A DNA stretch of 28,667 bases from positions 1 through 28,667 of the IMG/VR virus record IMGVR_UViG_3300037961_000476; one strand, 5' to 3'. Origin of the DNA: a virus. Both the position numbers and the translations under genes were made by a program. Positions 1 to 28,667 of the stretch are shown piece by piece (the first letter of the stretch is position 1; every line of letters begins with the position of its first letter). A model generated the notes under the pieces. It was not told the DNA's origin and did not search any database. It saw only the letters and a program-made list of their open reading frames with translations.

Positions 1-888
1 CATTTAAGCTATCCTTAGTGATGTTAAGTTTGTATCTACGCATTATGTCAATACCTAAATGTATTCCTGCTCCCTTTTTTGCTGCCTTTACATTTAAACC
101 AGAACGATACAATTCCTCTATAGCTTTCGGCTCGGCACTATCACAAATTATTTCATCTTGTCTACTAACACCTAGTTCTTTTATTTTATTTGCTAAATCA
201 GTATTAGTTAATCTCTTTTCATAAATCATTTCTTTTAAGTATAGACTGTCATCACGTTGATATACAGCAATCATAGCACTTGGAGAATTTGTGAAGCCGA
301 AATCTAATCCAAAACCAATCAAACGCCCTTGTACGTCATCAACAAGTTGAAAGTTTCTGAAGATAGCTGTTTGTATTGTTCCAATTTCACCCATTCCATA
401 AACCCTATAATATTCAGGATCAATGTCTTTTAATCTTTCAATCTCAGCTATTGTATCTTCATCTAAGAATGGATTAGCTCTATATGTAGATTTTAAGAAT
501 GTGCAATCATCTCTAGTATGTACCTTTTCATATATCCAAGAATAAGGATCAGAAGGATTGTAGTCTAAGTATATCTTTTCTGTTGTTCTTAGTATTAGCT
601 GTTGCCAATCTTCATAATTAAATTCATTTGCTTCATTACACCATAGATAGTGGCGTTTCCTACCGCGTATCTTGACTGGCTGATCCACTGAAATAAATTC
701 GATTAAATTGCCATTAAGCGTGTATGATAATTCTGATTTGTTATGATTTTCTTCTGAGTATAGTTCTAGTTCTTTTAGGATATTCAATACATCACGATAT
801 GCTGTACCTTTAAGAGCAGGTAGTGTCTTTCTGCATATAGTGAATATTTTACCTGTTTCTTCTAAGCATTTAACAATAAACAATTGAC
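1..888. repeat. Imperfect terminal repeat, left copy (pairs with 27780-28667)
   Basis: Aligns base for base with 27780-28667: 95 mismatches by eye, no indels. The first ~76 bases are identical, and the last ~110 are identical save one base, while 300-420 and 640-720 diverge most. It is an overlap of a circular or permuted genome with two alleles, not an exact direct terminal repeat. Confidence 0.9.
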
Positions 889-7494: not shown

Positions 7495-7878
7495 TTATAT
7501 TTTTTTTATTTTTTCAATCGTTCTTCCCGCAAAATAAGATCCATAAATTACCATTAAAAGGTTAGTATAAATAGGAGCATATATTGGGTTCATAGTGAAT
7601 CCACCTACGTTACCATCAAAAAAAGATATTATTACAAATATCATAGTTAAAAAAGCTAGAGTTAATGGTCTGATATTGGCAGGTAACCACCCCGCCTTAC
7701 TATCAGCTTCCCACCTTCTCGTTACTTGTTCTTGTGCTTTACTTTCAGCATCAGCTAAAAGTTGTTTAAATTTAAGTTTTATTTCCTTCTTTTCTACAGG
7801 GCTTGTGTGTAACGTATCAACAATGTTATTAACATCTTTTAATACATTACCGCTTAGTATTTTTCCTATTATACTCAT
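7495..7878 (-). CDS. Holin-like membrane protein (3TM type)
   Basis: 127 aa. The soluble N-terminal half (SPVEKKEIKLKFKQLLADAE) precedes RRWEADSKAGWLPANIRPLT, the signature of the 3TM holin superfamily used for phage or gene-transfer-agent release. Hydrophobic spans lie at about 73-88 and 104-118. It overlaps the endolysin gene stop by 4 nt. Holin function is inferred from this family likeness and from direct adjacency to the M15 peptidase. Confidence 0.75.
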   Translation of the reverse strand: MSIIGKILSGNVLKDVNNIVDTLHTSPVEKKEIKLKFKQLLADAESKAQEQVTRRWEADSKAGWLPANIRPLTLAFLTMIFVIISFFDGNVGGFTMNPIYAPIYTNLLMVIYGSYFAGRTIEKIKKI

Positions 7879-8375
7879 ATTGCGTAATAGTTCTTTTTAG
7901 GTCTATATTTAGTCCTATTGTTTTCGTCTTTATAAGCAACCAGAATTTGCCTTCTGTTTCCTGTTATCTTCCAACTTATATGAATCCAATCAGGATTGTC
8001 ACTATCCTTGTCTGCTGTTGCACCACCAAACTCTAATATAAGCTGATCAAAATCCAAACCCATTGTTACAATAGCATTAAAGATTCGCATATTGTCCATA
8101 CGTCCACGCTTAACAAACTGCAAGTCCACAGCTTCGCATTTAGTATGTTGTGACTTATTAGAACCCCCTATTGCTGCGTTAAGGCTTTCAGACCTATAGC
8201 CACTCGATATTCTTAATGGAGCTGATAAACAGTCACGTATCGGCTGCAAAAGTTCGGTGGCTAAAAGTCTGAGTTTGTGTATTCCTTCCTTGTCGGGCAT
8301 ATTAGAAATACCAAGTCTTTTGCTAGTATTACTTGCGGTTAATTCAGCGAGTGTGAAATTTTTACTTATTCTCAT
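7875..8375 (-). CDS. Peptidase M15 endolysin (D-Ala-D-Ala carboxypeptidase type)
   Basis: 166 aa. It has the N-terminal SKNFTLAELTAS segment typical of M15_3 phage enzymes, SSGYRSESLNAAIGG with the conserved Arg, the zinc motif SQHTKCEAVD (H77, D84) and the third ligand in DWIHISW (H132). It should cut peptide crosslinks of peptidoglycan at lysis. No signal peptide is seen, so access to the wall would depend on the holin downstream. It overlaps the neighbouring thioredoxin-fold gene by one base. Confidence 0.9.
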   Translation of the reverse strand: MRISKNFTLAELTASNTSKRLGISNMPDKEGIHKLRLLATELLQPIRDCLSAPLRISSGYRSESLNAAIGGSNKSQHTKCEAVDLQFVKRGRMDNMRIFNAIVTMGLDFDQLILEFGGATADKDSDNPDWIHISWKITGNRRQILVAYKDENNRTKYRPKKNYYAI

Positions 8376-8764
8376 TATTCAAATTTTGCTAACATCAAAT
8401 TGTCTATGCTTTTTTGCACGTCCTTTTTTGTTGCATCTAATTGAAACATAATGTTTGCCTTAAACCTGTCTTTTTCTTCTCCGCTTTCAAATATAATAAC
8501 TGTAGGTATACAGGTTACATTATACTTCTTTTGTATGCTTGGAAAACGTCCTATATCAACTCTGTATGTTTCACAGTCATTTAATTTAGAAAATTCTGCA
8601 AACTCATTAGACTTATTCCATTCAACCCAAAACTCTACTGCAACAATATCTTTTGCAATCTTATCTTGAAAGTTAGACTCAGTAATAAATTCTTGACCAC
8701 TGGCTATACCTATCATAAAAAATAAGATAGTAATTAAAATATATAGTAAGTCTGTAAATGTCAT
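8375..8764 (-). CDS. Exported thioredoxin-fold protein lacking the CxxC active site
   Basis: 129 aa. A hydrophobic N-terminus (about 6-22, ending ASGQ) acts as a signal peptide or anchor. The rest aligns well with thioredoxin: VEFWVEWN in place of the FWAEWC strand, the VDI segment, KYNVTCIPTVIIFESGEE with the conserved cis-Pro. Where thioredoxins have WCGPC this has WNKSNE, so disulfide chemistry by the usual mechanism is excluded. Cys64 and Cys85 remain. Lying in the lysis block with periplasmic targeting, it may be a chaperone or lysis regulator (inference). Confidence 0.7.
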   Translation of the reverse strand: MTFTDLLYILITILFFMIGIASGQEFITESNFQDKIAKDIVAVEFWVEWNKSNEFAEFSKLNDCETYRVDIGRFPSIQKKYNVTCIPTVIIFESGEEKDRFKANIMFQLDATKKDVQKSIDNLMLAKFE

Positions 8765-9042
8765 TGCATTTTGTCTATTTTGTCTCTAAGATATTTGATG
8801 TCCTCTTTTATTTCTGTAACGTCCTCTTGTGTTGTCATAATAGTTTGGCGTATCATTCGGTCTTTCATATCAAACTCCAACTTAGTTACTTCAGGTTCGG
8901 GAGGCAATGGCAATAGCTTTGCTTCATCTATAGAAGCATTAAGGCTAAACCACATCCCTACAAGCGTAGCAATTAAAACACCTATTCCACCTAAGGTTTT
9001 TAAACTTATTTCAAACTTAGAATCTTCTGAAAGCTCTTTCAT
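8761..9042 (-). CDS. Single-span membrane protein with coiled coil (possible lysis accessory)
   Basis: 93 aa. A membrane segment at about 15-35 (LGGIGVLIATLVGMWFSL) is followed by a Pro-rich patch (LLPLPPEPE) and a charged helical tail from 57 to the end (EDVTEIKEDIKYLRDKIDKM) that reads as a coiled coil. The topology recalls spanin- or holin-associated proteins, but no family is certain. It overlaps the thioredoxin-fold gene by 4 nt and the next membrane gene by one base, placing it within the lysis block. Confidence 0.55.
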   Translation of the reverse strand: MKELSEDSKFEISLKTLGGIGVLIATLVGMWFSLNASIDEAKLLPLPPEPEVTKLEFDMKDRMIRQTIMTTQEDVTEIKEDIKYLRDKIDKMQ

Positions 9043-9275
9043 TATTTACAAGATTTATCACATTTTTTACCTGAAAACTTTTCAATACCACTGATTCCAA
9101 AACACCCCAACACTAGCCATGTGAAGCTGTCATAAACGAATTCATTTATGATTAAATCTTTTCCAAACCAACCTGTAAGCAAATCAGCTATCATTATTAT
9201 ACACATTATTATAAAAGCAACAAAACCGATTATTGCCTTTTCATTCCAATTATTATCGTCTTTAAATATATTCAT
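9042..9275 (-). CDS. Small two-span membrane protein, holin-like
   Basis: 77 aa. Two hydrophobic spans (about 15-35, IIGFVAFIIMCIIMIADLLT, and 48-62, SFTWLVLGCFGISGI) with a Lys/Cys-rich C-terminus (KKCDKSCK). Size and topology fit a class II holin, but the gene at 7495-7878 is the better holin candidate, so this could be a second holin, an antiholin or an unrelated membrane protein. Joined end to end with its neighbours by one-base overlaps. Confidence 0.5.
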   Translation of the reverse strand: MNIFKDDNNWNEKAIIGFVAFIIMCIIMIADLLTGWFGKDLIINEFVYDSFTWLVLGCFGISGIEKFSGKKCDKSCK

Positions 9276-9823
9276 TATAATACTTTTTTAATTTGACCAT
9301 TTTCTATATATATACTTTCAGGCTTTCTAATGTGCTGACCATTAAGGTTGTACATTAAGCCTGTGTTTTTTGATTTGTCTAACACTTCATCAATACCTGT
9401 ATTACATGGCAATCCTGTTTCACAATCAATATACTCTTGTGTAAATATTTCAATGTATTCTGTTTCTATTATAGTGTCATAGATAATTACATCAACATAT
9501 TCAATAACTGTTTCGTAGATGTATTCTATTTCATATATAGTATCACATTCTTGAGGCGGAGGACCACAATCTTCAGGTGATGTAGGAACAGCACCATTTT
9601 CATCTGAGCCATCAGCACAGTCATCCCACCCATCATTTAAATACTCTAATCCGCCCTCACCATTAGGCACACAACCATTAGGAGCATACTGAGTCCAGTT
9701 AGCAGGATCATCACCACAGAAAAAACCATTTTGTTCAGCGCAATCTAAACATAGTTGTTGAAAGTCATAACCTTGTCCAAAAGAAAATGATGTTATAAAT
9801 AATAATGTAATTAGTCTGTTCAT
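9275..9823 (-). CDS. Secreted acidic protein with LDL-receptor-A-like repeat and T9SS-like C-terminal sorting tail
   Basis: 182 aa. A signal peptide (1-16, ending SFGQ) leads a Cys-rich region containing GWDDCADGSDENG, the calcium-binding core of LDL-receptor class A repeats. An acidic beta-rich stalk follows with repeated DTI/EYI units (about 93-130), bounded by cysteines. The C-terminus (LMYNLNGQHIRKPESIYIEN then GQIKKVL) resembles the T9SS sorting tails of Flavobacteriia, which carry a protein across the outer membrane and attach it to the surface. The tail is short relative to the usual ~70-80 residues, so T9SS use is a strong suggestion rather than certain. It starts 3 nt after the beta-barrel gene and looks host-derived. 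A virion adhesin is the main alternative. Confidence 0.6.
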   Translation of the reverse strand: MNRLITLLFITSFSFGQGYDFQQLCLDCAEQNGFFCGDDPANWTQYAPNGCVPNGEGGLEYLNDGWDDCADGSDENGAVPTSPEDCGPPPQECDTIYEIEYIYETVIEYVDVIIYDTIIETEYIEIFTQEYIDCETGLPCNTGIDEVLDKSKNTGLMYNLNGQHIRKPESIYIENGQIKKVL

Positions 9824-9825
9824 TG

Positions 9826-10836
9826 TTAAAATATTAAATAGTTAAATCCAAACTTGCACTCATATATTGGCTTTTCCCAGTAGTTTAAATATGTGCCTTC
9901 TACAAACAATCCTAAATGCTTAGTAACTCTAAGACCTGCTACAATACCTGCATCTAGGTCTAATCCTGCCCCTTCATACTCAAAACTATACTCACTTAAA
10001 CCATAGTGTAAAGGCATTAAATTTAGCCATGTATGTAGCCATGCGTTATTATGGTATTTGTAATATGCTATTCCTATAGCCATAGAAAGCTCATAGACGT
10101 TTCCTAAGGCGTTTAATTGCTCATTGTTATAGTTTGCTATAGCTTGACCAAAATAATGCTTGTAAAACTCATCATTTGACGTTGCTATTAGTTCACCATT
10201 ATTAAACCAATGCCAATCACCCTGAACGTATTGCGTAGAATATCCAAAATCTTCTGCTAAATCATTAAATGTGCTTTCTCCACTTACCCAAAAATCCTGA
10301 ATAGGAAGGATATGATAAACAGGATGCTGACGCCCCAAAACGCCCATTGTAAAATCAAAGTTGCCCTTTTGTAGTCTATACCTTGTATCAAACGATATAA
10401 ACTCCATATTACGTCTTTCATCATTTTTAAGTTGTATTTTAGTTACACATTTGTTTCCAAGGTATCTAAGCCAAAAATCCTGGTTAGTAAACTTGTCACC
10501 ACGATTACGTATAAATGAATAATTAAATAAATACTCCCAACCAATGCTATTACCAATAGTAACATTGTCACTAACAGCTTTCTCAGTACCATAGTACCAT
10601 GTTTTAACTTTATATTCATAATCAAATCTTGCTATTTTTCTTAAACCTATTGTAAGGTTATAATCATATGGATTAACTTGTGTAACATCTTCATAGCCTT
10701 TAGATACAGCTATATAATTTTGATCCTCAACCATGCTTGTATTCATACTCATAGAAGTATAGAATGTAGCATACTTAAAAAAGTTACCTTGACTAAATCC
10801 CAAAAAGGGTAATAATAATAATATATATTTTATCAT
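9826..10836 (-). CDS. Putative outer-membrane beta-barrel protein
   Basis: 336 aa. A clear signal peptide (MIKYILLLLPFLGFSQ) is followed by alternating amphipathic strands rich in Tyr, Trp and Phe, and turns rich in Asn/Gly/Asp. The last strands (LDAGIVAGLRVTKHLGLFVE, then CKFGFNYLIF) end in a terminal Phe, the usual signal for outer-membrane insertion by BAM. I recognise no specific family. It overlaps the preceding structural gene by 4 nt and is followed within 3 nt by the T9SS-like protein. It may change host surface or receptor access during infection (inference). Phage virion proteins do not usually carry signal peptides. Confidence 0.65.
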   Translation of the reverse strand: MIKYILLLLPFLGFSQGNFFKYATFYTSMSMNTSMVEDQNYIAVSKGYEDVTQVNPYDYNLTIGLRKIARFDYEYKVKTWYYGTEKAVSDNVTIGNSIGWEYLFNYSFIRNRGDKFTNQDFWLRYLGNKCVTKIQLKNDERRNMEFISFDTRYRLQKGNFDFTMGVLGRQHPVYHILPIQDFWVSGESTFNDLAEDFGYSTQYVQGDWHWFNNGELIATSNDEFYKHYFGQAIANYNNEQLNALGNVYELSMAIGIAYYKYHNNAWLHTWLNLMPLHYGLSEYSFEYEGAGLDLDAGIVAGLRVTKHLGLFVEGTYLNYWEKPIYECKFGFNYLIF

Positions 10837-27621: not shown

Positions 27622-28667
27622 TTACAATATATAATACTTGCCACTATGATTAATTGATAGCTTGTTTAAACACAGATAACGTACTGCATCTACTAAGTGG
27701 TCATTTACTTTTACAGGCGTATTTAATACATCACCATTTTTGTCTGTAGCCCATTTATAACCTCTAAATTCTTTTATTGCATTTAAGCTATCCTTAGTGA
27801 TGTTAAGTTTGTATCTACGCATTATGTCAATACCTAAATGTATTCCTGCTCCCTTATTTGCTGCCTTTACATTTAGATTTGAACGAAACAATTCGGTAAT
27901 TGACTTCGGTTCGGCACTATCACAAATTATTTCATCTTGCCTACTAACACCTAGTTCTTTTATTTTATTTGCTAAATCAGTATTAGTTAATCTCTTTTCA
28001 TACAGCAGCTCTTTGATGTATAAACTGTCATCACGTTGATATACAGCAACCATAGCACTTGGAGAATTTGTGAAGCCAAAGTCTAATCCATAACCAACTA
28101 AACGACCTTGTACGTCATCTACTAAATTAAAGTTTCTAAATATCATTGTCTGTACTGTTCCTATCTCACCTAATCCATACACACGCCAATAGTCAGGATC
28201 AATATCTTTTAATCTTTCAATCTCTGCAATAGTATCTTCATCTAAAAATGGATTGGCTCTATATGTAGATTGTAAGAATGTGCAATCATCTCTCGTGTGT
28301 ACCTTTTCATATATCCAAGAATAAGGATCAGAAGGATTATAATCTAAGTAAATCTTTTCTGTTGTTCTAAGTATTAGCTGTTGCCAATCTTCATAATTAA
28401 ATTCATTTGCCTCATTACACCAAAGATAATGTCTTTTACGTCCTCTTATTTTTTGTGGTTGGTCAACACTAATAAATTCTATAATGTTACCATTGAGGGT
28501 GTATGATAATTCTGATTTGTTATGATTTTCTTCTGAATATAATTCTAGTTCTTTTAAGATATTCAATACATCACGATATGCTGTACCTTTAAGAGCAGGT
28601 AGTGTCTTTCTGCATATAGTGAATATTTTACCTGTTTCTTCTAAGCATTTAACAATAAATAATTGAC
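27622..28667 (-). CDS. terL: Phage terminase large subunit, allele 2 (N-terminus cut off by the window edge)
   Basis: C-terminal ~348 residues, read from the right edge. RGRKRHYLWCNEANEF is the Walker B-like region with Asn-Glu in place of Asp-Glu. The nuclease domain shows GLDFGF, IICDSAEPKSI and NDHLVDAVRYL with the three expected acidic residues. It is 89% identical in DNA to positions 1-888, with no indels. In two segments I translated, changes were mostly silent or conservative (for example 21 base changes at 661-720 give 2 amino-acid changes). Both alleles therefore look functional. The upstream part would equal about 889-1009 of allele 1. Confidence 0.9.
   Translation of the reverse strand, partial: QLFIVKCLEETGKIFTICRKTLPALKGTAYRDVLNILKELELYSEENHNKSELSYTLNGNIIEFISVDQPQKIRGRKRHYLWCNEANEFNYEDWQQLILRTTEKIYLDYNPSDPYSWIYEKVHTRDDCTFLQSTYRANPFLDEDTIAEIERLKDIDPDYWRVYGLGEIGTVQTMIFRNFNLVDDVQGRLVGYGLDFGFTNSPSAMVAVYQRDDSLYIKELLYEKRLTNTDLANKIKELGVSRQDEIICDSAEPKSITELFRSNLNVKAANKGAGIHLGIDIMRRYKLNITKDSLNAIKEFRGYKWATDKNGDVLNTPVKVNDHLVDAVRYLCLNKLSINHSGKYYIL
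27780..28667. repeat. Imperfect terminal repeat, right copy (pairs with 1-888)
   Basis: Right-hand member of the pair described at 1-888. Together they imply a genome unit of about 27,779 bp. Confidence 0.9.

Follow-up and report, generated by a model that had tools for sequence, protein, structure and literature searches.

The gene ldl, on the minus strand at positions 9275–9823 of a 28,667-base IMG/VR phage record analysed here in full (the window), encodes a protein that we consider, at a probability of about 0.6, to be a phage-encoded cargo of the host type IX secretion system (T9SS), shown late in infection beside its own outer-membrane barrel and probably masking the cell surface. Its last 40 residues match short T9SS signals of host proteins and, therefore, the virus probably uses the host machine to coat the surface of the infected cell. 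The export part of this reading is well supported by sequence homology; the function we infer. The protein and its neighbours are organised as follows (window positions; the basis of each assignment is given in brackets).

9275–9823, minus strand: ldl, predicted exported head-stalk-tail protein of 182 aa (sequence, relatives, alignment)
9773–9823, minus strand: putative signal peptide, residues 1–17, ending SFGQ, lipobox absent (sequence)
9545–9772, minus strand: head, Cys-rich LDLa-like domain, residues 18–93, with a DDCADGSDE core (PF00057, host homologues, pLDDT)
9428–9544, minus strand: stalk, amphipathic segment of probable beta-strand, residues 94–132 (two-residue length steps across the family)
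9278–9397, minus strand: tail, short T9SS CTD-like segment of 40 aa, residues 143–182 (motifs, profiles)
9826–10836, minus strand: partner gene directly upstream, putative signal peptide and predicted outer-membrane beta-barrel of about 12 strands, ending in F (AF2, Foldseek, linkage)
9042–9275, minus strand: tm77, small membrane protein, often next in the cassette (next recognised gene in 81 loci)
8761–9042, minus strand: tm93, membrane-anchored coiled-coil-like protein (147 loci)
8375–8764, minus strand: trx, predicted exported thioredoxin-like protein without the CxxC active site (PF00085, E 1.8e-7)
7875–8375, minus strand: M15 peptidase endolysin, downstream lysis gene (PF08291, E 3.5e-18; phrog_894, E 3.6e-30)
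7495–7878, minus strand: holin-like protein with three transmembrane segments (3TM) (PF11351, E 0.0043, under the cut-off)

The open reading frame was confirmed on the minus strand, at the stated coordinates and its full 182 aa, with the features that a preliminary description of this DNA had noted: a signal-peptide-like start, a DDCADGSDE core (residues 67–75), an acidic stalk (residues 94–132) and a conserved C-terminal region (residues 133–182). The N-terminus (MNRLITLLFITSFSFGQ, followed by GYDF) has the shape of a Sec signal peptide without a lipobox; judged likewise by sequence shape only, a loose signal-peptide-end pattern is matched by 126 of 129 unique relatives, and a lipobox is present in none of the 129. 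Relatives were retrieved from 21 IMG/VR stretches with a single-protein query and from 227 with an alignment query, the family being found in more than 200 IMG/VR contigs, a redundant collection in which some counted loci are one contig fetched twice; none was found among 50,697 annotated phage records. Head, stalk and tail follow each other in every family member, and the alignment of 46 representatives contains 31 invariant columns (head cysteines, much of the DxxDC....DE core, G162, I173 and G176); with relatives at 227 stretches, the open reading frame is not a chance one. The record also holds portal, terminase, endolysin and tape-measure genes. Its terminase is closest to those of Bacteroidota phages, with Flavobacterium phages among the best matches (about 38% identity); the host is placed at the level of Bacteroidota-like and would presumably carry a T9SS. 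The phage may or may not be of the lytic type, as it had been called earlier: Cro/C1-type HTH genes are present, and no integrase was named among the scanned proteins. The ends of the window (1–888 and 27780–28667) match each other within the large terminase gene over 891 columns at 89.5% identity; they are not an exact terminal repeat and rather suggest a circular genome whose assembly was closed with the copy of a different strain.

The tail comprises the 40 aa from a predicted cleavage site at T142/G143 to the C-terminus and contains GI directly after this site, a motif B (YNLNGQHI), a motif D (ESIYI) and a motif E (NGQIKKVL). In all 129 unique full-length relatives, 42–44 aa follow PC, with an identical motif order. 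Gly162 of motif B is invariant and Tyr158 is present in at least 90% of the 46 representatives. In motif D the Ile is invariant and the Tyr is kept in at least 90%; of the 129 tails, about 100 have the Gly and about 25 have Ser or Asp instead (Ser in the focal protein, SIYI). A Lys or Arg is present in motif E of the 121 tails matched by a regular expression (121/121), and the eight tails outside it still read ..KYKL, ..KFKL or ..KYKIY. The AF2 model of the tail is a helix plus short strands, with pLDDT of about 70–86.

These features resemble the short CTDs shown by mass spectrometry in Prevotella intermedia, described as the sole species reported to have them; these CTDs have 40–51 aa, a consensus cleavage site PT/GI, a motif B with conserved Tyr and Gly, a motif D with GxY then Ile and a basic motif E (PMC11969387); they are predicted to form a three-stranded sheet, and for five of them cleavage was determined experimentally, with glycosylation (PMC11969387; Ye et al., 2025). 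Both groups of tails share the length of about 40 residues, the small/Ile cleavage site, motifs B, D and E arranged in one order at roughly equal distances, with a short gap after motif B, the extreme C-terminal position, a small predicted sheet and the location in a signal-peptide protein. They differ in that the motif B glycine is followed by Q or K in the phage tails and mostly by R/K in Prevotella, about one phage tail in five, the focal one among them, has another residue in place of the motif D glycine, and the distance from cleavage site to motif B is slightly longer in the phage tail; moreover, ours lies on a phage protein, whose export is predicted. In HBP35, the last 22 residues, with motifs D and E, were what a GFP fusion required (PMC3120885; Shoji et al., 2011), and the CTD of one species may not function in another (PMC11285876).

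The curated models TIGR04183, PF18962 and CHU_C (PF13585) matched none of the 46 phage members at E up to 10, and a canonical type A or B identity of the tail was rejected on this ground. In 150 Flavobacteriales genomes, a profile built from phage tails only matched best, in one genome, to L189 (E 1.5e-4), which has a signal peptide and terminates in GIEEMRPAQITNGKMYDLLGRELKEAPFRQLYIQNGKKLFRIE; the same search gave L194 (E 0.008). A joint phage and host profile retrieved from 349 genomes more host matches, with E down to 2e-12, all host short tails other than those of L189 and L194 coming from this profile, which already contained both. The host proteins examined have a signal peptide and a terminal tail such as GIDEIETNPIYDNKIYDMLGRELKEVPIGQPYIQNGKKKIILN, the phage counterpart being GIDEVLDKSKNTGLMYNLNGQHIRKPESIYIENGQIKKVL. 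When phage-only and host-only tails were aligned with each other (hhalign), the probability was 97% (E 8e-11) and the score 49.5, against a mean of 9.8 and a maximum of 17.3 for 100 column-permuted controls. The comparison with full-length host CTDs scored 21.1 (permuted maximum 15.2) and placed YNLNGQ onto their IYDIxGR strand. Against the PDB, the joint profile matched the C-termini of arabinanase 4kca (E 1.6e-4) and of 7jvi (E 0.026). The phage-only profile had no significant PDB match, 4kca (E 0.044) ranking behind yeast HSH49 (E 0.014), a match judged spurious. A phylum-wide search for short tails returned solely the genome already known, and no tail was found in other ORFs of these phages. 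Thus, of the T9SS tail proposed in the preliminary description, what stands is a short, CTD-like signal that recurs at Flavobacteriales C-termini, and what does not is a canonical type A or B CTD.

The Flavobacteriales signal-peptide proteins with short CTD-like tails are L189, L194, L198, L200–L202, L204 and L207, which from their sequences are candidate T9SS cargo; TIGR04183 fails on both of those tried (L189 and L194). A second type of C-terminal tail (..VVDVMGREVNPVPNQILFYIYTDGSVEQKFIWN) was seen in the Flavobacteriales proteins L209, L211 and L212 and is possibly another short sorting signal.

The head had been read as LDLa-like, and this is sustained in the form of a divergent LDLa variant. 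Taken alone, the focal protein matches PF00057 at E 0.13 (12.9 bits, under the 24.1-bit Pfam cut-off), yet 38 of 46 members match it (best E 4e-4), and in the PDB the head profile matches best to repeats of LRP1 and VLDLR (E from 0.005 upwards). The calcium core DxxDC.DxSDE is present, with Asp64, Asp68, Cys69, Asp74 and Glu75 invariant in the 46 members, and from this likeness the head probably binds calcium; its pLDDT in the AF2 model is about 80–90. The phage head and PF00057 share the DGxxDCxDGSDE core and the Cys spacing before it, but the phage head reads LNDG for CDG, so lacking the fourth Cys, and has an additional N-terminal Cys; the Cys pattern is off the canonical six (1-3, 2-5, 4-6) and, therefore, the head was not filed as a standard LDLa domain.

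The same domain is found at 47–50% identity in three proteins from metagenome-assembled genomes (MAGs): L100 (Crocinitomicaceae), with two copies and, after them, PKD and Kazal domains; L101 (Neomarinimicrobiota), truncated at a contig end, in which the phage-type head stands in a row with full LDLa repeats; and L102 (Flavobacteriales), with one copy. Two of the three exceed the Pfam threshold for LDLa, L100 with 26.8 bits and L101 with 47.6 bits. At its C-terminus L100 carries a T9SS type A sorting domain (TIGR04183 35.8 bits and PF18962 36.2 bits, both over the cut-off; its genome has 54 TIGR04183 matches) and L102 a weaker one, under the cut-off. Since host relatives share the domain and L100 and L102 end in CTDs, the sequences argue that the head is an LDLa derivative used on T9SS cargo by cells of this group. 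A head-domain search in 299 genomes gave nothing beyond the MAG already known.

The stalk, which the preliminary description had noted as acidic and repetitive, turned out to follow a length rule that it had missed and that is new here. Stalks span 10–170 residues across the family and consist of I, V, E, T, Y and D, with G, S, K and R nearly absent. Identity between stalk residues is raised wherever they lie an even number of positions apart and low for odd distances except 5. One length parity is common to 97 of 106 unique stalks, across 35 different lengths of that parity, and the nine odd ones out carry one common motif. Along a tree of the independent barrel proteins, we counted 69 stalk length changes with 7 parity changes, versus 41 length changes with 31 parity changes in a control segment between head core and stalk (Fisher p 2.5e-12), counts which recombination and shared ancestry make approximate; even-sized repeat units could also add to the parity bias, but the spacings between successive DT, which range from 8 to 22, are nearly all even. 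The two-residue steps suggest that the stalk is probably one continuous beta-strand with two different faces, face A of V, I, E and D and face B of T, Y, I and F. A lone strand of this type would be unstable and, therefore, the stalks likely join as oligomers into a sheet or fibre. With its even steps, the stalk shows selection on beta-strand register from an unusual angle. The cargo model had no Foldseek match in the PDB (best E 0.91), as expected, because it consists of two small domains and a disordered stalk.

The obligate barrel partner had also escaped the preliminary description. It has 336 aa and about 12 strands (AlphaFold2, mean pLDDT 73), and its model gave 44 Foldseek matches in the PDB at E up to 0.001, chiefly outer-membrane barrels (NanC, FapF, OmpG) of generic kind, with TM-scores of about 0.35. 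Its best viral match is an unnamed protein (32% identity), and no barrel relative was found among the annotated phage records, nor in 199 Flavobacteriales genomes, a search run without positive control. In 21 barrel members there was no match to PorP/SprF or PorV (NCBIfam, E up to 10) and none to a Pfam barrel family, so that PorV/SprF identity was rejected. Barrel and cargo genes occur together in 149 of 154 loci, the five one-gene loci all lying at contig ends, and are separated by no more than 5 nt in 120 of the 149. The contigs that carry the pair are about 28 kb or 40–90 kb long, and the neighbouring genes differ. The gene tm93 adjoins trx in 135 of 143 loci; it lies on the strand opposite the cargo gene in six loci and, therefore, the obligate unit is barrel plus cargo.

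Such an invariant, closely spaced pair brings to mind a dedicated two-gene export, in which the phage barrel would be exporter or shuttle, the tail the part that it recognises and the host T9SS optional. In F. johnsoniae, type B cargo genes often adjoin genes for PorP/SprF-like shuttles, in pairs thought to be stoichiometric (PMC12618676); FapF, an exporter of functional amyloid, is among the best structural matches of the barrel, and the stalk is beta-strand like. However, the barrel members match neither PorP/SprF, PorV nor another Pfam or NCBIfam barrel family, the structural matches are generic barrels with low TM-scores, and a barrel neighbour is so far a feature of the phage tails, so we regard this route as unlikely.

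The surroundings of the pair suggest other roles. In the 28-kb phages the cassette adjoins the M15 endolysin and the 3TM holin, and tm93 is laid out like an inner-membrane spanin, as if barrel, cargo, membrane coiled-coil and thioredoxin-like protein together disrupted the outer membrane in place of a spanin. Yet in longer phages the lysis genes are kilobases off or on the other strand (e.g., L010), the holin is on the opposite strand in 13 of 86 loci, tm93–trx can part from the pair while barrel and cargo never part, and the host relatives of the tail are ordinary exported proteins; a lysis accessory seems to us quite improbable. The focal gene also follows directly on genes for tail and connector proteins, a small head on a long, two-faced beta stalk recalls the design of fibres, and LDLa-like heads bind ligands. 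All this would suit a virion adhesin, a structural protein of tail-fibre type for which the likeness to secreted proteins would be secondary. We hold this to be very improbable: signal peptides throughout the cargo and barrel families would take both products out of the cytoplasm, where virions are assembled, and the host homologues of head and of tail are exported cell proteins.

We thus favour host T9SS cargo, with the following course of events. Sec would export the protein through its N-terminal signal peptide and the last 40 or so residues would then pass it to the host T9SS translocon, two steps for which sequence homology makes this the most likely course. The signal would probably be cleaved at the conserved small-residue/Ile site (T142/G143 in the focal protein), leaving a mature protein with an LDLa-like head borne on a stiff amphipathic beta stalk, which would be shown on the outer surface or set free from it. 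The cargo would be made late, together with the barrel encoded directly upstream, which probably holds it, escorts it or works beside it. The purpose would most likely be a change of the infected-cell surface, by which receptors are masked, superinfecting phages excluded and progeny kept off debris. Display beside the barrel and late masking seem most likely from gene linkage and from analogy with late phage outer-membrane proteins and SprB/SprF-type cargo-shuttle pairs (PMC12618676). A bolder form, which we consider doubtful, is a complete T9SS display kit. The cargo would need no more than a minimal signal, and the phage barrel, related neither to PorV nor to PorP/SprF, would serve it as shuttle or anchor; the stalk, a single continuous strand with two faces and up to 170 residues (more than 50 nm if fully extended), would build with its neighbours a coat or fibre that closes the cell to other phages.

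Like SprB/SprF-type pairs (PMC12618676), the phage genes combine a repetitive, probable surface protein bearing a C-terminal signal with an adjacent outer-membrane barrel; they differ by a barrel without PorP/SprF match, a barrel-first gene order and a tail half as long as a type B CTD. The family can also be set beside other phage envelope proteins encoded near tail or lysis genes. Lom/Cor/Llp-type late phage outer-membrane proteins, whose genes adjoin tail or lysis genes, alter or mask the cell surface and are single small barrels or lipoproteins. Unlike these, the present family has putative T9SS cargo and a stalked head.

The preliminary description had held phage use of T9SS to be little described. 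This is wrong in part: phage-encoded T9SS cargo has been proposed for 'Cryophage' (PMC7468147) and proteins with T9SS sorting domains were noted in crAss-like phages (PMC6949934), in each case phage genes bearing a host-type signal, as here. The cargo in Cryophage, a PA14 protein and enzymes that vary, is annotated as having type A sorting domains, whereas ours is a single conserved family with a short signal and, in more than 100 contigs, a fixed barrel-gene neighbour. Relative to the openly accessible literature, four things are new: a phage protein that carries a short signal, its obligate barrel partner, their conservation throughout a large group of marine phages and a stalk locked in register. 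If our reading is true, host T9SS use would be conserved throughout a common group of marine phages and not one phage's accessory gene, and short T9SS signals would extend beyond Prevotella; the family would lend itself to testing which features the secretion machine requires and would provide a candidate mechanism for phage control of the cell surface in T9SS-bearing bacteria.

Some further observations concern the cassette. In trx, WN replaces WCxxC throughout the family and the cis-Pro region is retained. In L055, L060, L075 and L088, several kilobases separate trx from the barrel gene and the two differ in strand, which shows that the cassette can come apart into its two parts. Upstream of the cassette, L076 (2804–6742) encodes a 1312-aa phage protein with a match to the SprB repeat (PF13573, E 5.8e-7); it lacks an evident signal peptide and may be a tail fibre bearing a repeat of the gliding-adhesin type. 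Staphylococcal-nuclease-like genes lie within or beside the cassette in a larger phage (L073, 11769–12143; PF00565, E 4.8e-13) and, as judged by sequence similarity, in L010 (12677–13111).
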